Below, one piece after another: positions 27,869 to 49,011 of a stretch of 55,066 bases of DNA. Source of the DNA: an uncultured Anaerovibrio sp. (GTDB lineage: Bacteria > Bacillota > Negativicutes > Selenomonadales > Selenomonadaceae); assembly GCA_902786545.1 (NCBI GenBank), contig CADACU010000014.1, forward strand, positions 1 to 55,066. Direction: 5' to 3'. A model generated the notes under the pieces. That model made no database searches, had not been told where the DNA came from, and was given only the letters and a program-made list of their open reading frames with translations. The translations under genes and the position numbers were made by a program. The stretch's first letter is position 1. Every line of letters starts with the position of its first letter.

Positions 27869-30151
27869 ATGAATACATCTGAACTTAGCGAGTTTGATTT
27901 ATTCCTGTTTCATCAGGGGACAAATTATCGCGCTTATGAAATGTTAGGTGCGCATATTATGACTCAGAATGGGAAGCAGGGCGTTCGGTTTACCGTATGG
28001 GCACCCCATGCCAAGGAGGTTTCTGTTGTTGGTGATTTTAACAACTGGGACACCCGGGTAAATAAAATGTCCAAGCTGGGGGATGGCGAGATTTGGAATT
28101 TGTTCATACCGGGATTGGGCGCCGGAACAGTTTACAAATATGCCATATTACCACAGCATGAAGGACCGCATATTATGAAGGCGGACCCGTACGGATTTTA
28201 TGCGGAGAAAAAGCCGGAAACGGCCTCCATTGTATATGATTTGAACAACTACAAATGGCAGGATAAAAAGTGGATTAAGTTCAAGGAGGATAACCCGTCT
28301 TACAGTCGGCCTATGCTGACCTATGAGGTTCATCTTGGCTCCTGGCGCCGGACTTTGGAGGGAGATTATTTATCGTACCGGGAAATGGCAGATCAGCTGG
28401 TGGATTATGTTAAGAGTATGAATTATACCCATATGGAGTTTATGCCTCTGTGTGAGCATCCATTTGATGGATCATGGGGCTATCAGGCCACCGGCTACTA
28501 TGCTGTTACCAGCCGTTATGGAACGCCGGATGATTTCTGTTATTTGGTTGACAAGGCTCATCAGGCTGGTATCGGTATTATTATGGACTGGGTACCGGGG
28601 CATTTCTGCAAGGATAACCAAGGCTTGCGGGATTTTGATGGTCAGAATTTATATGAGTCGGATAATATCCAGCGGGCCGATAATGCCGGCTGGGGAACTA
28701 TAAATTTTGATTATGGCCGCACTGAGGTACAAAGTTTTTTGATTTCCAATGCCCTGTTTTGGATGGAGCAGTATCATATTGATGGACTGCGGATAGATGC
28801 AGTGGCCAATATGCTTTATCTGAACTATGGTCGGCAGGACGGAGATTGGGTGCCGAACAAATACGGTGGCGATGGTAATCTGGAGGCCATTGATTTCCTC
28901 CATAAGCTGAACGAGGCCGTGTTTAAGTTCTATCCTCAAGCTTTGATGATTGCCGAGGAATCCACTTCCTGGCCGAATGTTTCCAAGCCAACCTATATGG
29001 GGGGCATGGGCTTCAACTACAAGTGGAATATGGGCTGGATGAACGATATTCTTCGTTATATCAGTCTTGATCCAATTTATCGTAAGTGGCACCATGATAA
29101 GCTGACCTTCTCCTTGATGTATGCCTTCAACGAGAATTTTGTATTGCCACTGTCCCACGACGAAGTGGTACATGGCAAGTGCTCCCTTATCAGCAAGATG
29201 CCGGGAGATTATTGGCAAAAATTTGCCGGCTTGCGGGCCTTCTTTGGTTATTGGATGGCTCATCCGGGCAAAAAGCTACTCTTTATGGGTGGTGAGTTTG
29301 GTCAGTTCATTGAGTGGAATTTTGACGACAGTCTGGATTGGCATCTGGTAGAGCAATATGAAAAGCATACCCAGATGCTGGAGTATTCCCGGGCCTTGAA
29401 CAAATTTTATGTTGATCACAAAGCCTTTTGGCAGGTTGATTTTGACTGGAACGGCTTTGAGTGGATTGATTGTGAAAATGCGGATGACAGTGTGGTGTCC
29501 TTTATTCGCAAGGACGAGGACGGGGACTTCATCATCGCTATCTGCAACTTTACACCGGAGGTTCGACAGGGGTATCGCTTTGGTGTACCGAAGGCCGGTG
29601 TCTATCGTGAAGTGTTCAACAGTGATGCAGGGGAATTTGGTGGCTCCAATGTTTTGAATGATTATGATATTGAGACAGAGGAGATGACCTGGCAGAATCG
29701 GCAGCACTCCATTCTGGTAACGGTACCGCCTTTGGCGACTATCTATCTGGAATATAAGGGGGAGAAAGAAGGGGAGTCTTCCCCCAGTAGCAAAGTGATC
29801 AAAAAGGTGGTTGCTGCCAAGACAAAAAAAACGGCAGATAAAGCTGAAGCAAAGTCTACGACTACTCGTGGCCGGAAAAAAGCCAGTGAGGTAAAGGAAA
29901 CCGAGGAAAAGCCAAAAACTACCCGTGGCCGGAAAAAAGCCAGCGAGGTTAAGGAGACCGAGGAAAAGCCCAAAACTACCCGTGGCCGGAAAAAAGCCAG
30001 TGAGGTAAAGGAAACCGAGGAAAAGCCAAAAGCTACCCGGACCCGAAAAACGGCCACCACAACTAAAACCACCACTAAGACCAATACTGCAAAGGCTGCC
30101 ACTAAATCTAAAACCACCAGAACTAACCGGGCGAAAAAAGCCGCGGAATAA
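27869..30151 (+). CDS. glgB: 1,4-alpha-glucan branching enzyme with Lys-rich repeat tail
   Basis: GlgB creates alpha-1,6 branches in glycogen. The 760-residue protein has an N-terminal CBM48 domain (FTVWAPHAKEVSVVGDFNNW), a GH13 barrel with nucleophile Asp310 (GLRIDAVANM), acid/base Glu363 (IAEES) and Asp431 (LSHDEVVHGK), and an all-beta C domain ending near residue 635. It then continues into a tail of about 120 residues, mainly Lys, Thr, Arg, Glu and Ala, with three exact-length 19-residue repeats of the type TTRGRKKASEVKETEEKPK. Such a tail is absent from ordinary GlgB. ATG 27869 is chosen because AAGGGGG lies 6 nt upstream; an in-frame codon at 27848 does not have such a site. Confidence 0.97.
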   Translation: MNTSELSEFDLFLFHQGTNYRAYEMLGAHIMTQNGKQGVRFTVWAPHAKEVSVVGDFNNWDTRVNKMSKLGDGEIWNLFIPGLGAGTVYKYAILPQHEGPHIMKADPYGFYAEKKPETASIVYDLNNYKWQDKKWIKFKEDNPSYSRPMLTYEVHLGSWRRTLEGDYLSYREMADQLVDYVKSMNYTHMEFMPLCEHPFDGSWGYQATGYYAVTSRYGTPDDFCYLVDKAHQAGIGIIMDWVPGHFCKDNQGLRDFDGQNLYESDNIQRADNAGWGTINFDYGRTEVQSFLISNALFWMEQYHIDGLRIDAVANMLYLNYGRQDGDWVPNKYGGDGNLEAIDFLHKLNEAVFKFYPQALMIAEESTSWPNVSKPTYMGGMGFNYKWNMGWMNDILRYISLDPIYRKWHHDKLTFSLMYAFNENFVLPLSHDEVVHGKCSLISKMPGDYWQKFAGLRAFFGYWMAHPGKKLLFMGGEFGQFIEWNFDDSLDWHLVEQYEKHTQMLEYSRALNKFYVDHKAFWQVDFDWNGFEWIDCENADDSVVSFIRKDEDGDFIIAICNFTPEVRQGYRFGVPKAGVYREVFNSDAGEFGGSNVLNDYDIETEEMTWQNRQHSILVTVPPLATIYLEYKGEKEGESSPSSKVIKKVVAAKTKKTADKAEAKSTTTRGRKKASEVKETEEKPKTTRGRKKASEVKETEEKPKTTRGRKKASEVKETEEKPKATRTRKTATTTKTTTKTNTAKAATKSKTTRTNRAKKAAE
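29861..30031 (+). repeat. Three 57-bp tandem repeats inside the glgB tail
   Basis: Units are 29861-29917, 29918-29974 and 29975-30031, each 19 codons, with a degenerate fourth start at 30032. They differ mainly at synonymous sites, for example AGTGAGGTAAAG against AGCGAGGTTAAG. That implies the protein repeat is under selection or that the array is young. Confidence 0.9.
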
Positions 30152-37412: not shown

Positions 37413-37725
37413 ACCCCCTCAGACTGCTATGCAGTCAGCTCCCCAGTGGGGAGCCAAGAAGTACAATGTGGGATAGTCGATATCATAACCACTTAACCTC
37501 GTCTCCCTTGGGGAGCCAAGATGTACATGTAGGATAGTCGATATCATGACCACTTAACCTCGTCGCCAGTGTGGAGCCAAGAAATACAATGTGGTATAGT
37601 CGATATCATAACCACTTAACCTCGTCGCCAGTGGGGAGCTAAGACGTACAATGTGGTATAGTCGATATCATAACCACTTAACCTCGTCTCCCCTGGGGGA
37701 GATGTCACGAAGTGACAGAGGGGGT
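37413..37725 (+). repeat. Family B palindromic repeat B1 enclosing four 62-bp tandem units
   Basis: The element starts ACCCCCTC (37413) and ends GAGGGGGT (37725), complementary ends. The left inner hairpin is GACTGC-TAT-GCAGTC, the right GTCAC-GAA-GTGAC. Between them are four tandem units of 61-62 bp beginning at 37448, 37510, 37571 and 37633 and sharing the core AGTCGATATCATAACC. It begins 4 nt after the phosphohexomutase stop codon and fills this 348-bp gap. Confidence 0.9.
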
Positions 37726-37756
37726 CCACCATAAAATTGTATAAGGAGATAACATT

Positions 37757-40062: not shown

Positions 40063-40232
40063 GAATGCCCTGCGGCATATAAGACCTCATTCGTCAGCTG
40101 CGCTGACACCGACGGAGCTTTGCTCCTAGTGCCTGTAGGTGCTTCCCCAGAGGGGAAGGCAGGATTCAAGCCTTCTCCCTTGGAGAAGGTGGCACACGAA
40201 GTGTGACGGATGAGGTTTAACCCGAAGGGAAT
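40063..40232 (+). repeat. Family A palindromic repeat A1
   Basis: It starts GAATGCC-(C)TGC-GGCATATA and ends CCCGAAGGGAA. It contains CCTCATTCG near the left and CGGATGAGGT near the right, with inner hairpins TCAGC-TGC-GCTGA, GGAGC-TTT-GCTCC and CTTCCCCAGAGGGGAAG. It begins 9 nt after the manA stop codon. It is a more divergent member, and the right half reads GGCACACGAAGTGTGAC. Confidence 0.8.
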
Positions 40233-43737: not shown

Positions 43738-43866
43738 TACCTCATCCGCCTAGTCCTTTAGGGCTTCGCGTCGCAAGCTCGGCACCTTCCCCATAGGGGG
43801 AGGCAAAAAAAGCCCTCCTCTCTGGGGAGGGTGCCCGAAGGGCGGGTGAGGTTTTACCCGAAGGGT
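43738..43866 (+). repeat. Family A palindromic repeat A2
   Basis: It starts ACCTCATCCGCC and ends CGGGTGAGGT-tttACCCGAAGGG. Inner hairpins are CTTCCCCATAGGGGGAG, CCTCCTCTCTGGGGAGGGTG and GCCCGAAGGGC. It lies 16 nt after the ychF stop codon. The usual GAATGCC left end is not well conserved. Confidence 0.8.
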
Positions 43867-43885
43867 ATTTAATAGGAGTTCGTTT

Positions 43886-44794
43886 ATGAAGGGTATTATT
43901 CTGGCGGGAGGGTCGGGCACCCGGCTCTATCCCCTTACCATGGTAACCTCCAAGCAGCTGTTACCGGTTTATGACAAGCCAATGATTTATTATCCCATGT
44001 CGGTGCTGATGCGGGCTGGCATTCGGGATATTCTTATTATTTCTACACCACAGGACACCCCGCGCTTCCAGTCCCTGTTAGGGGATGGCAGCCAGTTTGG
44101 GGTGCGGTTGTCCTATGCTGTACAGCCTAGCCCGGATGGCTTGGCGCAGGCCTTTATTATTGGTGAGGACTTTATTGGCAATGATACCGTAGCCATGGTG
44201 CTGGGGGATAATATCTTTGCCGGACACGGCCTTACCAAGCGCCTGTTAGCGGCGGTGAATAATGCGGAAACCGGCCGGGGAGCCACTGTATTTGGGTATT
44301 ATGTGGACGATCCGGAGCGGTTTGGTATTGTGGAATTTGACCAGCAGGGCAAGGCAGTATCCATTGAGGAAAAACCGACGAACCCAAAGAGCAATTACTG
44401 TGTTACGGGATTATATTTTTACGACAACAAGGTAGTGGACTATGCCAAGTCATTAACGCCAAGTGCTCGGGGAGAGCTGGAGATTACCGATTTAAATCGA
44501 ATTTATCTGTCCCGGGGAGCGCTGAATGTGGAGCTATTGGGACAGGGCTTCACTTGGCTGGACACCGGAACCCATGAATCTTTGGTGGATGCAACCAATT
44601 TCGTCAAGACGGTGGAAAGCCACCAGCATCGTAAGATTGCCTGTTTGGAGGAAATTGCTTATCTGAACGGGTGGATTACCAAAGAGGATGTGCTGAGGGT
44701 GTATGAAGTATTGAAGAAAAACCAGTATGGCCAATATCTCAAGGATGTCCTGGATGGAAAATATATTGATGTGACCCCCTCAGTCACTTCGTGA
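43886..44794 (+). CDS. rfbA: Glucose-1-phosphate thymidylyltransferase
   Basis: RfbA (RmlA) makes dTDP-glucose from glucose-1-phosphate and dTTP, the first step to dTDP-rhamnose. The 302-residue protein has [42 protein letters not shown] and [10 protein letters not shown]. Start: ATG 43886 after AGGAG. The last six residues (TPSVTS) and the stop codon are provided by repeat B3, which starts at codon 297; the original C terminus has evidently been replaced or extended. The core enzyme appears complete. Confidence 0.97.
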
Positions 44795-44920
44795 CAGCTC
44801 CCCTCAGGGGAGCCGAGTAGGGGTGCTATCATACTTGCCTCCCTAAGAGAGGCCGAGTAGGGGTTGGTGCTATCGATACTTGCCTCCCTTGGGGGAGGTG
44901 GTCGAAAGACCGGTGGGGGT
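44774..44920 (+). repeat. Family B palindromic repeat B3, overlapping the rfbA 3' end
   Basis: It starts ACCCCCTC within rfbA and ends GGTGGGGGT. The left hairpin is GTCAC-TTC-GTGAC, containing the rfbA stop TGA; the right is GGTC-GAAA-GACC. CTCCCCTCAGGGGAG lies inside, and a TAGGGGT(T)G-containing segment is partly duplicated in the middle. Confidence 0.88.
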
Positions 44921-44950: not shown

Positions 44951-45928
44951 ATGACTATAATTGTTACCGGGGGAGCCGGGTTTATTGGCAGTAATTTTGT
45001 TTACTATATGCTAAAGACCCACCCTGATTACCGAATCGTTTGTCTGGACAAGCTGACCTATGCCGGAAACTTATCCACGCTGGAGCCAATAATGGATAAT
45101 CCCGCTTTTCGCTTTGTCAAGGCGGATATTTGTGATCGGGTGGCAGTGGATAAATTGTTTGAAGAAGAACATCCGGATATGGTGGTAAATTTTGCGGCGG
45201 AAAGTCATGTGGACCGGTCTATTGAGGATCCGGGGATTTTTTTGCAGACCAATATTATCGGTACCTCTGTGTTGATGGATGCTTGCCGAAAATATGGCAT
45301 AAAGCGGTATCATCAGGTGTCTACGGATGAGGTCTACGGGGACTTGCCGTTGGATAGGCCGGATTTGTTTTTCACGGAAGAAACCCCGATACATACCAGT
45401 TCACCATACAGCAGCTCCAAAGCGGGGGCTGATTTGCTGGTAATGGCGTATCACCGCACCTATGGATTGCCGGTGACCATTAGCCGGTGCAGCAACAACT
45501 ATGGACCGTACCATTTTCCGGAAAAGCTCATTCCATTGATGATTACCAATGCCTTGGCGGATAAGCCCCTGCCGGTGTACGGCGAAGGAGTTAATGTGCG
45601 GGATTGGCTCTATGTAGAAGACCATTGCCGGGCTATTGATTTGATTATTCATAAAAGTGCTGTGGGAGAGATTTACAATATCGGCGGGCACAATGAAATG
45701 CGTAACATTGATATTGTAAAGCTGATTTGCCAGGAGCTGGGTAAGCCGGAAAGCCTGATTACCTATGTGACGGACCGCAAGGGGCATGATATGCGGTATG
45801 CCATTGACCCAACGAAAATTCATCGGGATTTGGGCTGGTTGCCGGAGACGAAATTCGCCGATGGAATAAAGAAGACAATTAAGTGGTATTTGGACAATGA
45901 AGACTGGTGGAGGCCACTGCTGAAATGA
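44951..45928 (+). CDS. rfbB: dTDP-glucose 4,6-dehydratase
   Basis: RfbB (RmlB) converts dTDP-glucose to dTDP-4-keto-6-deoxyglucose with NAD. The 325-residue SDR protein has [34 protein letters not shown] with the catalytic Asp-Glu pair, and [12 protein letters not shown] (catalytic Tyr-x3-Lys). [18 protein letters not shown] is also present. The start is ATG 44951 behind AGAGGAA. The stop codon overlaps the rfbD start (ATGA), so rfbB and rfbD form a coupled pair. Confidence 0.97.
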
Positions 45929-46839
45929 AAATTTTAGTTACTGGGGTGGCGGGACAGCTGGGCCACGATGTAATAAACGAATTGCATAAACGGGGGCATA
46001 TCCCTGTCGGTTCGGACATTGCTCCGGCGTATACCGGTGAGCAGGACGGGGATGGTATCCAGACCATGGAATATGTGTCGTTGGATATTACTGATGGAGC
46101 GGCGGTGGAAAAGACTATTTCCGACTTACAGCCTGACGGAGTGGTGCACTGTGCGGCCTGGACGGCGGTGGATGCGGCCGAGGATGCCGACAAACAAGCC
46201 AAGGTATGGGCGGTAAATGTTACCGGTACGGAAAATATAGCTCAGGCCTGTCGACAGGCGGACTGCAAGCTGATTTATTTGAGTACGGACTATGTGTTCA
46301 GCGGCGAGGGGGATGCGCCTTGGCAGCCGGATTGCCAGGCGTATGCCCCATTGAATTACTATGGTGAAACCAAGCTGGCGGGGGAAAAAGCTGTCAGCCA
46401 GCTGCTGGATAAATATTTTATTGTACGGATTGCCTGGGTGTTTGGCAAAAACGGCAAGAATTTCATCAAGACTATGCTAAAGGTTGCCGAAAATCATGAT
46501 ATGGTACGGGTGGTGAACGACCAGATTGGCACCCCGACATATACCTTTGATTTGGCCCGGTTACTGGTGGATATGCTGGAAAGTGATAAATATGGTTATT
46601 ATCATGCCACCAACGAAGGGGGCTATATCAGCTGGTATGACTTCACCTGTGAGATTTATCGGCAGGCTGGCCTGTCTACTAAGGTGGTGCCGGTGACTAC
46701 GGCGGAGTACGGCTTAAGCAAGGCCAAGCGGCCGTTTAATAGCCGGCTGGATAAGGGAAAGCTGATTGAAAATGGGTTTGTGCTACTGCCAACCTGGCAG
46801 GATGCAGTAGGGCGGTATTTAAAAGAAATAGGAAGGTGA
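45925..46839 (+). CDS. rfbD: dTDP-4-dehydrorhamnose reductase
   Basis: RfbD (RmlD) reduces dTDP-4-keto-rhamnose to dTDP-L-rhamnose with NAD(P)H. The 304-residue SDR protein has [44 protein letters not shown] with the catalytic Tyr/Lys, and [13 protein letters not shown]. The ATG at 45925 overlaps the rfbB stop. Its own stop codon (46837-46839) is the first three bases of the left direct repeat of the DUF559 element. rfbC, which acts one step earlier in the pathway, lies beyond that element. Confidence 0.95.
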
Positions 46840-47119
46840 AGGAATGCCAGATGGCATATAGAACCTCATCCGGCACACTTCGTGTGCCACCTTCCCCAGA
46901 GGGGAAGGCGGGGAATAAAGCCCTCCCCTCTGGGGAGGGTGCCCGAAGGGCGGGTGAGGTTAACCCCGAAGGGAACTCTTTTGAAGGAATGCCTGACGAC
47001 ATATAGGACCTCATCCGCATCGCAGGCTCGGCACCTTCTCCATGGGAGAAGGCTGGTAACACTGCCCTCCCCTCTGGGGAGGGTGCCCGAAGGGCGGGTG
47101 AGGTTAACCCCGAAGGGAA
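46837..47119 (+). repeat. Left direct repeat of the DUF559 element (A units A3+A4)
   Basis: Two A units in tandem. The first has GGCACAC-TTC-GTGTGCC as inner hairpin, the second GCATCGCAGGCTCGG. Both have CTTC(C/T)CCA(G/T)(A/G)GG-type palindromes, GCCCTCCCCTCTGGGGAGGG, GCCCGAAGGGC and the end TTAACCCCGAAGGGAA. The terminal GAAGGGAA may also act as a distant ribosome binding site for the DUF559 gene. Confidence 0.9.
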
Positions 47120-47132
47120 GCAAGCTAGTTAT

Positions 47133-47504
47133 ATGGGAATAATAACCTATCGTGAAGATTTAAAACAAAAATCACAAATTTTGCGTAAAGAAATGACAAA
47201 AGAAGAACGGCATTTGTGGTATGATTTTCTCAGAACATACAGCCCGTCATTTCATCGTCAAAAGCCAATAGGTAATTATATTGCTGATTTTTATTGTGCA
47301 AGTGTGAAATTGATTGTTGAACTTGATGGTGGCCAGCATTATGAAGATAATAGTCTAAGGTATGATGAGAAACGGACTGAATATCTAAATATGCAGGGTA
47401 TTACAGTTTTAAGATTTACAAATACGGATATTTGGAAACATTTTTATGAAGTATGTACAGAAATAGACCGTGAGGTAAAGTTCATATTGGGAAAAGGCTA
47501 TTAA
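47133..47504 (+). CDS. DUF559 (Vsr-like PD-(D/E)XK) endonuclease-domain protein
   Basis: This 123-residue protein has the DUF559 pattern. KEERHLWYDFLR leads into FHRQKPIGNYIADFYC, then LIVELDGGQHY with the Glu and His of the nuclease core, YDEKRTEYLNMQGI, and VLRFTNTDIW. This is a PD-(D/E)XK-type fold related to very-short-patch repair nucleases; Asp in IADF and Glu in VELDG are the likely metal ligands. The function of the family is not established. The gene is A/T-rich against its neighbours, hinting at transfer. It has no close ribosome binding site except GAAGGGAAG about 12 nt upstream, in the repeat end. Both sides are family A repeats, which suggests that protein and repeats belong together. 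Confidence 0.85.
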   Translation: MGIITYREDLKQKSQILRKEMTKEERHLWYDFLRTYSPSFHRQKPIGNYIADFYCASVKLIVELDGGQHYEDNSLRYDEKRTEYLNMQGITVLRFTNTDIWKHFYEVCTEIDREVKFILGKGY

Positions 47505-47510
47505 GGTTTG

Positions 47511-47792
47511 TGAAGGAATGCCTGACGGCATATAGAACCTCATCCGGCACACTTCGTGTGCCACCTTCCCCAGAGGGGAAGGCAGGGAATAAAGCCCTCC
47601 CCTTTGGGGAGGGTGCCCGAAGGGCGGGTGAGGTCCAACCCGAAGGGAACTCTTTTGAAGGAATGCCTGCGGCATATAGAACATCATCCGCATCGCAGGC
47701 TCGGCACCTTCTCCATGGGAGAAGGCTGGTAACACTGCCCTCCCCTTTGGGGAGGGTGCCCGAAGGGCGGGTGAGGTTAAACCCGAAGGGAA
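47511..47792 (+). repeat. Right direct repeat of the DUF559 element (A units A5+A6)
   Basis: A copy of the left repeat with scattered substitutions. Both A units here share CCCTTTGGGG where both left units have CCCTCTGGGG, so units within a block resemble each other. A further degenerate A-end fragment (GGGGGAGGTCCAGCCCGAAAGG-like, about 47802-47824) follows before rfbC. Confidence 0.9.
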
Positions 47793-47858
47793 TTATATGT
47801 TCGGGGGAGGTCCAGCCCGAAAGGTGGATGTATTTTATTATCGTAGTAGGAGAATTAT

Positions 47859-48482
47859 ATGGGAAAAATTACAGTTGAAAAAGTGCCGATTGAGGGCCTA
47901 TATATTATTACTCCGGCAGTGTATGGTGATAGTCGGGGCTATTTCACCGAAACCTATAACCAGCAGGATATGATTGCCGCCGGACTGGATATGACCTTTG
48001 TGCAGGACAACGAAAGTATGAGCAGCAAGGGCGTCCTCCGGGGGCTGCACTTTCAAAAACAGCATCCTCAGGGAAAGCTGGTGCGGGTTATGGAAGGCCG
48101 GGTTTTCGATGTGGCAGTGGATTTGCGGCAAAATAGTCCCACCTTTGGCCAGTGGTTTGGTGCTGAGCTGTCCGAGGATAATCACAAGCAGTTTTATATT
48201 TCACCGGGCTTTGCCCACGGCTTTTTAGTGCTGTCGGAGCGGGCTAAGTTTGCCTACAAATGCACGGATTTTTATCATCCAGAGGATGAAGGGGGCCTGG
48301 CTTGGAATGATCCGGATATTGGTATTATCTGGCCGGAGCTGACAGGAGCCTATAACGGTACTCCCGCGGGGACCGGCTACCAACTGTTGGATGGTACGCC
48401 GCTAAATCTTAGTGAAAAAGATACGAAATGGACTGGTTTTAAAAAATCGTTTATATTTTTGGAAAAATTAAAAAATTATTAA
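47859..48482 (+). CDS. rfbC: dTDP-4-dehydrorhamnose 3,5-epimerase
   Basis: RfbC (RmlC) epimerises dTDP-4-keto-6-deoxyglucose at C3 and C5, between the RfbB and RfbD steps. The 207-residue cupin has DSRGYFTETYN, QDNESMSSKGVLRGLHFQ with the catalytic His, GRVFDVAVDLR, YISPGFAHGFLVLS and YKCTDFYHPEDEGG. The start is ATG 47859 after AGGAGAA. The C terminus (about 185-207, FKKSFIFLEKLKNY) runs slightly past the usual end. The gene is separated from rfbABD by the DUF559 element and may need its own promoter or read-through across the repeats. A terminator follows at 48591. Confidence 0.96.
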   Translation: MGKITVEKVPIEGLYIITPAVYGDSRGYFTETYNQQDMIAAGLDMTFVQDNESMSSKGVLRGLHFQKQHPQGKLVRVMEGRVFDVAVDLRQNSPTFGQWFGAELSEDNHKQFYISPGFAHGFLVLSERAKFAYKCTDFYHPEDEGGLAWNDPDIGIIWPELTGAYNGTPAGTGYQLLDGTPLNLSEKDTKWTGFKKSFIFLEKLKNY

Positions 48483-48836: not shown

Positions 48837-49011
48837 CCTCATCTATCAGCCTAAGGCTTTTTGAATGCCTGACGACATATAGAACCTCATCCGCCTCGCG
48901 TAGCTCGGCACCTTCCCCAGAGGGGAAGGCAAGAAAAGCCCTCACCTATGGGGAGGGTGCCCGAAGGGCGGGTGAGATTCAACCCGAAGGGTAATGTCGG
49001 GTTAGATGAGG
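48837..49011 (+). repeat. Family A repeat A7 nested within outer inverted arms
   Basis: A core A unit runs from GAATGCCTGACGACATATA (48863) to CCCGAAGGG (about 48992). It is bracketed by CCTCATCTA (48837-48845) and TAGATGAGG (49003-49011), which are complementary and themselves look like A-unit ends. That suggests one A element inside another. Just upstream is GGGAGGGAAG followed by TTGAAATAA, an initiation signal with no gene. Confidence 0.8.

Follow-up and report, generated by a model that had tools for sequence, protein, structure and literature searches.

DUF559 nuclease genes framed by palindromic repeat doublets: a candidate selfish, REP-like element

The window analysed here, a 55,066-nucleotide contig from an uncultured Anaerovibrio sp., contains an intact DUF559 gene between two arrays of palindromic repeats, and the same pairing of gene and repeat is found in distant bacterial groups, which suggests one selfish, genome-spreading element. 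Gene and repeats are, in our judgement, probably the two halves of this REP-like element, which would spread through a nuclease cut followed by homing-like repair. Repeats of a definable anatomy accompany DUF559 genes across phyla; individual sites occur empty, with a doublet only or with units plus gene; repeat units and strong DUF559 genes occur together among genomes; and the gene is, to judge from substitution ratios, under purifying selection. We propose that DUF559 is the nuclease of a BoxC/PIT-like repeat, in a partnership like that of REP and RAYT but resting on a PD-(D/E)XK enzyme that would do the cutting. The features of the window are as follows.

45907..46839, + strand: rfbD (PF04321), left neighbour, start codon uncertain
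46836..47119, + strand: left direct-repeat array (A1 doublet 46853-46975, A2 doublet 46997-47119)
46872..46908, + strand: single A unit; H1 GGCACACTTCGTGTGCC, then H2 arms CCTTCCCC / GGGGAAGG; third block CCTCATCC immediately 5'
46921..46951, - strand: inverted partner, within the A1 doublet, of unit 46872..46908
47133..47504, + strand: DUF559 (PF04480) Vsr-like nuclease gene, 123 aa, intact, framed by the two arrays
47510..47792, + strand: right direct-repeat array (A1' doublet 47527-47649, A2' doublet 47670-47792)
47859..48482, + strand: rfbC (PF00908), right neighbour
43745..43872, + strand: solo A doublet, 5' of rfbA
48860..48996, + strand: solo A doublet, 3' of rfbC
40063..40232, strand not given: solo A-type doublet, diverged
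44773..44817, + strand: family B unit, GACCCCCTCAGTCA..., laid out as family A; this type also lies 5' of the second DUF559 gene in the genome
42413..42459, + strand: family B unit
37414..37727, strand not given: family B array (one unit, then tandem copies with a 61-62 bp period, then an inverted unit)

The open reading frame between the arrays matches PF04480 over its full length (E 7.3e-31, 106.7 bits against a cut-off of 20.6, profile positions 2-108 of 109), and its product is related to PDB 3hrl (E 7.5e-20). The first-pass annotation had described two near-identical direct repeats around this gene, the whole interrupting the rhamnose genes, and both observations are borne out: the arrays, of 284 and 283 bp, are 95.4% identical over 284 alignment columns with a single gap opening, and rfbD ends at 46839 while rfbC begins at 47859. 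Its description of each array as two A units holds for the number, but the 'unit A' so defined is itself a doublet, composed of one unit plus one inverted unit. Each unit in the window consists of a C-rich outer block and two hairpins, one short (H1) and one C-rich/G-rich (H2). With RNA energy parameters, the A1 doublet is predicted to fold into one branched, cruciform-like structure of -79 kcal/mol in which the outer blocks pair together, and the A2 doublet into a less regular structure of -63 kcal/mol.

A search for the core GTGCCCGAAGGGCGGGTGAG, allowing up to 2 mismatches, returned 7 copies in the 2.23 Mb genome, all of them exact and 6 within 5.2 kb at the window locus, and 0 matches with the reversed-sequence control; because of this clustering and the empty control, the A repeats are not attributed to chance. 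A broader unit core is present in 17 copies genome-wide (control 0). Where A units had been noted alone at three other places in the window, two are clear doublets (43745-43872 and 48860-48996) and the third (40063-40232) is diverged. Family-B rather than family-A repeats lie directly 5' of the genome's second DUF559 gene, which is on another contig (C15); the stretch of some 570 bases read 3' of this gene contains none. Within the family B array of the window, positions 37440-37712 consist of sequence in tandem with a period of 61-62 bp, flanked by two inverted family-B units.

The claim that DUF559 genes carry an excess of flanking units was examined in several sets of loci. PF04480 is found in 82 of the 151 genomes of the window's family; the family set comprised the 70 matches of at least 77 bits (the window's two included, weaker and mostly partial matches being dropped), of which 64 were usable for flank counts, the rest lying near a contig end or beside runs of N. 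Hairpins with a stem of at least 8 flank 40.6% of these 64 genes on both sides, compared with 2.7% of 367 control genes from the same loci, and 81% versus 26% on either side. For a strict C-rich hairpin (stem of at least 7, pyrimidine or purine content of the arms 85% or more, within 300 bp of the gene), the counts in the window's family are 59/64 DUF559 genes versus 81/354 controls on either side and 29/64 versus 11/354 on both.

Outside the family, the broad cross-phylum set comprised the best 80 of at least 570 confirmed DUF559 matches and is rich in Rhizobiales; by record title these 80 are mostly from Pseudomonadota, with Nitrospirota, Chloroflexota, Planctomycetota and relatives of cyanobacteria also represented. 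Among the 76 of these best 80 usable for flanks, such strict C-rich hairpins were found on either side of 65 DUF559 genes, compared with 37 of 326 controls (Fisher 1e-36), and on both sides of 28, compared with 1 of 326 (Fisher 1e-21). In addition, 9 of the 11 loci scored negative among these best 80 have a repeat with imperfect stems that is visible by eye, inspection finding none at two (L172 and L182). Like-for-like sampling, in which all sets were best-scoring matches (8 of 31 DUF559 loci and 6 of 60 control loci being too short), gave repeats on either side of 23/23 DUF559 genes, 0/27 GIY-YIG genes and 1/27 ParE genes, and on both sides of 10/23 DUF559 genes. C-rich palindromes were also visible by eye within about 450 bp at all 10 loci read of 44 plasmid-collection records (Neisseria, two Sinorhizobium, two Azospirillum, Sphingomonas, E. 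coli, Deinococcus, Pseudanabaena and Photobacterium), on one side only in three or more. The excess stands against same-locus controls and other small genes alike, with all repeat families counted. The outer block of the nearest upstream unit faces the gene in 31 of 46 and in 47 of 57 cases; on the downstream side neither orientation is preferred (36:30).

The repeats resemble a known class, the BoxC/PIT repeats, which were first described in the 1990s. The three-block layout is recognisable in the window units by inspection, and inverted pairs occur in both; the units of the window's family differ in having a hairpin as linker and in not fitting the published pattern. BoxC, PIT and the triplex motif are one and the same, and its TMECO form, for which inverted pairs are also on record, has been reported in 262 proteobacterial genomes (Holder et al., 2015; PMC4666352); the accessible text of that report gives it no tie to a gene class, no mobility genes nearby and no known function. 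The E. coli member of the DUF559 family is ycjD, which has an exact TMECO match on its 3' side. Allowing up to 3 substitutions, TMECO occurs in the broad set (the best 80 of at least 570 matches) at 1.19/kb within 400 bp of DUF559 and at 0.031/kb beyond 1.5 kb, a 38-fold difference; it is present within 400 bp at 36 of these best 80 loci, and at 0 of 69 loci in the window's family.

If the window gene had been inserted between rfbD and rfbC, as the first-pass annotation supposed, relatives should hold empty sites, and these were found within the genus as well as at other, rhizobial DUF559 sites. A search with the joined ends of rfbD and rfbC matched all 16 genomes of the genus, the window's own included, and 14 loci of these 16 genomes were compared (G105 left out). 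The two genes are adjacent and the site empty in three of the 14 (G063, G021 and G130), with 23-50 nt between the matched ends. In G123, which has the best flank identity to the window (81-85%) and a DUF559 gene elsewhere, the interval of 231 nt holds a single A doublet without a nuclease gene. Four further loci have different inserts of 115-310 nt in which no A unit is seen by eye, four have another gene order, and two lack one of the genes in the available stretch. As the site is empty or doublet-only in relatives, the window allele is an insertion of doublets plus DUF559. Both results that the first-pass annotation had named as counting against its reading, a lack of flanking excess and a lack of empty sites, were thus looked for in somewhat broader form, and neither was obtained.

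Comparable alleles are present in Mesorhizobium. At one site (L122), searched in 16 genomes, a 662 bp element is present in G152 and the site is empty in G159, G161 and G153, the remaining 12 of the 16 giving no joined match. At a second (L124), read in 13 genomes, DUF559 lies between units in five (the copy in G160 broken, as judged by eye), a gene-less doublet is present in three, remnants in one and other inserts in four. The rhizobial unit core is present in 15 of the 16 Mesorhizobium genomes in 7-70 copies each, counting both strands, and among the places listed are many +/- pairs 86-90 nt apart. Inverted ends were observed at the rhizobial elements; no target-site duplication was resolved and no target-site rule found. 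At site A (G006/G111) the whole flank matched only these two of 11 genomes, with no empty allele.

Gene and repeats are also shared between loci that otherwise differ. Two copies at different loci of one genome (L078 and L085) have in common 617 bp (89%) surrounding the gene, together with short stretches of repeat, and nothing else within 4 kb, and two copies in another genome (L064) share 534 bp (85%) and repeats; between genomes, L085/L091 and L081/L078 have only the gene plus repeats in common. L083 is a tandem DUF559 pair, and other pairs, such as L040/L041, represent one site. The DUF559 copies at L078, L085 and L091 (G006, G096) are adjoined, in places on both sides, by a short stretch, as if carried along, that resembles the 3'-terminal part of a restriction specificity gene. 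The pair L049/L055, 99% identical over 579 bp, was considered as a moved copy and rejected: homology extends into the wider flanks, at 97% over 3607 bp to one side and 86% over 1330 bp to the other, and the pair is therefore one site with rearranged repeats and not evidence of movement. At both L049 and L055 one of the hairpin units beside DUF559 carries a second repeat-like sequence inserted in its loop, and the unit so interrupted differs between the two genomes.

In E. coli, ycjD sits between sapF and fabI in all ycjD-bearing strains listed, a fixed position in which nothing points to recent movement; at least 80% of the query is present in 3333 of 5426 genomes, and the gene is truncated in STK78-E. 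Genomes lacking ycjD (e.g. ST648) were considered as a clean empty site and rejected, an RND/TetR locus being present there. The sapF-fabI interval (L116, L117) holds either ycjD or this RND/TetR cluster (eefRABCD), alternative contents that the accessible part of a 2026 paper also describes.

Unit number follows the gene among genomes. With genomes having only DUF559 matches below 77 bits scored as negative, the median number of unit cores is 16.5 in genomes with a strong DUF559 gene (n=48) and 0 in those without (n=103; Mann-Whitney 2e-11), and in permutations within genera the observed difference was reached by 0 of 5000. The link is not strict, since unit copies also occur in 44 of the 103 genomes that lack a strong DUF559 gene, and the searched unit pattern is missing from 5 of the 48 that have one. 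In one genus (g13), all 28 sampled genomes are without both the strong gene and the unit core. The suggested covariation of repeat sequence and DUF559 is found in part: flank similarity rises with DUF559 identity, and for pairs from different genera the Mantel value is 0.132, and none of 500 permutations gave more than 0.116. When labels are shuffled only within genus, however, the null values run up to 0.2225 (mean 0.139, s.d. 0.025), and the observed 0.211 falls below that maximum.

The protein itself is predicted to be a nuclease. In an alignment of 46 sequences, the window protein plus 45 of the broad set (the best 80 of at least 570), 12 residues are invariant, and these include the five active-site positions E25, D52, D65, H69 and D78, which by our own fit of the sequence match the published spacing in Vsr/VsrA. 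On this spacing the window protein is a predicted member of the Vsr/EDxHD nuclease superfamily. Compatible assignments appear in the accessible parts of the literature, where YcjD is a PD-(D/E)XK member whose profile finds Vsr (a 2005 paper) and one DUF559 gene is placed among the EDxHD homing endonucleases. Estimates of dN/dS, rough because dS is saturated in some pairs, are 0.05-0.23 in 12 of 14 pairs, the other two having no synonymous change, and point to purifying selection on the gene.

Taken as one element, gene and repeats would be organised as follows. A unit has three blocks: an outer block rich in pyrimidines, a linker, which in the window is a short hairpin and in many other units is TAA/CAA/CGGC-like, and lastly a C-rich/G-rich hairpin; the doublet of two inverted units would be the non-autonomous form, and a DUF559 gene between doublets or half-doublets the autonomous one. 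The DUF559 protein may recognise the folded or duplex unit and nick or cut at or beside it, whereupon repair from another copy, with conversion via the repeat arms, would put gene and doublets into the broken site. Such conversion would explain the repeat duplication on both sides of the window gene, and homing-like repair of this kind is probably how the element spreads. As an alternative last step, the nuclease might copy doublets directly at replication forks, as has been proposed for RAYTs and their repeats.

The likeness to REP/REPIN-RAYT systems is an analogy: in both, the repeats are intergenic palindromes that form inverted doublets, elsewhere also without a gene, and one enzyme gene is flanked by repeats, whereas the enzyme is a DUF559 nuclease here and a Y1/HUH transposase there. 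The window's genome (91.7% complete) gave 0 matches to the Y1 transposase of the RAYT family (PF01797), and the GTAG tag of REP/REPIN was not seen in the DUF559-linked repeats. A closer, RAYT-like route, in which DUF559 excises and inserts doublets as single-strand intermediates with no need of homologous repair, is possible and in our view unlikely. The 7-70 rhizobial core copies and the listed +/- pairs 86-90 nt apart would suit a defined unit moving in this way, as would the gene-less doublet of G123, given that relatives have an empty site there; DUF559, however, is of the hydrolytic PD-(D/E)XK type rather than an HUH transposase, the search for a target-site rule found none, and doublet or units plus gene at one and the same site is better suited to conversion.

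The repeats might instead be a passive hotspot, their structure making them break and recombine unaided, with DUF559 one among many accessory genes landing there. Genetic instability is reported to be raised at BoxC/TM loci in the accessible literature, one and the same rhizobial site is occupied by apparent other genes in G165, G163 and G159, the E. coli interval accommodates either ycjD or eefRABCD, and repeats have been shuffled at the fixed site L049/L055. A hotspot of this kind is nevertheless quite unlikely, in that other genes of the same loci, and the ParE and GIY-YIG genes, are flanked far less often, and within genera the number of units tracks the presence of DUF559. In the accessible account of an evolution experiment, segments with transposase and DUF559 genes are named as recombination hotspots.

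Very unlikely, in turn, is a caretaker role, in which a Vsr-like DUF559 repair nuclease would keep structured C-rich repeats in check and be linked to them for that reason. It has a precedent in Caulobacter VsrA, which contains a DUF559 domain, has the same five active-site positions by spacing, and is read in the accessible text as a mismatch-repair nuclease (PMC12907096); that text links VsrA to a cytosine methyltransferase whose gene lies elsewhere, and makes no mention of repeats near it. A caretaker acting in trans, however, has no need to sit between the repeats, nor to be found with them at different loci of one genome. That the repeats, hairpins in intergenic DNA, do no more than terminate transcription or stabilise the mRNA of an acquired gene is scarcely credible, as they often stand on both sides, gene-less doublets exist, and PIT elements are reported, in the accessible source, to have neither promoter nor terminator activity.

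Compared with the EDxHD homing endonucleases, which are of the I-Bth0305I type, the proposed selfish element has in common the Vsr-like nuclease family and site alleles with and without the gene, but its gene lies outside any intron or intein and is framed by structure-forming repeats. With the CGTC-tagged REPs it shares palindromic repeats without a known enzyme (Di Nocera et al., 2013; PMC3733652, accessible text). A link to these, prompted by CGTC..CCA at H1 of many units, was rejected: our own pattern for CGTC..CCA-tagged hairpins was found within 400 bp at 0 of 80 broad loci (the best 80 of at least 570) and 0 of 70 family loci.

Whether DUF559 proteins serve throughout the bacteria as dedicated enzymes of the BoxC/PIT/triplex-motif repeats, giving cross-phylum, nuclease-driven REP elements with a PD-(D/E)XK enzyme in place of a transposase, is in our assessment evenly balanced. 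If so, DUF559, a widespread family whose role is not settled (ycjD in E. coli), would gain a function and the BoxC repeats an origin in one step, the nuclease family would acquire a substrate, and the instability at BoxC motifs a testable cause. In the accessible passages on DUF559 in the open-access literature, to which our search was confined, no report of a link between DUF559 and repeats was found. E. coli K-12 carries both ycjD and BoxC, which opens the link to ordinary laboratory test.

Two further observations concern coding annotation in the window. Spurious open reading frames run across the repeats at 46882-47142 and 47510-47878, with PSPLGRVPEGRV-like peptides, and other genomes may carry such misannotations. 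At 29846-30056 there are three 97-nt copies with a spacing of 57 nt, which look like a Lys/Arg-rich repeated coding motif.
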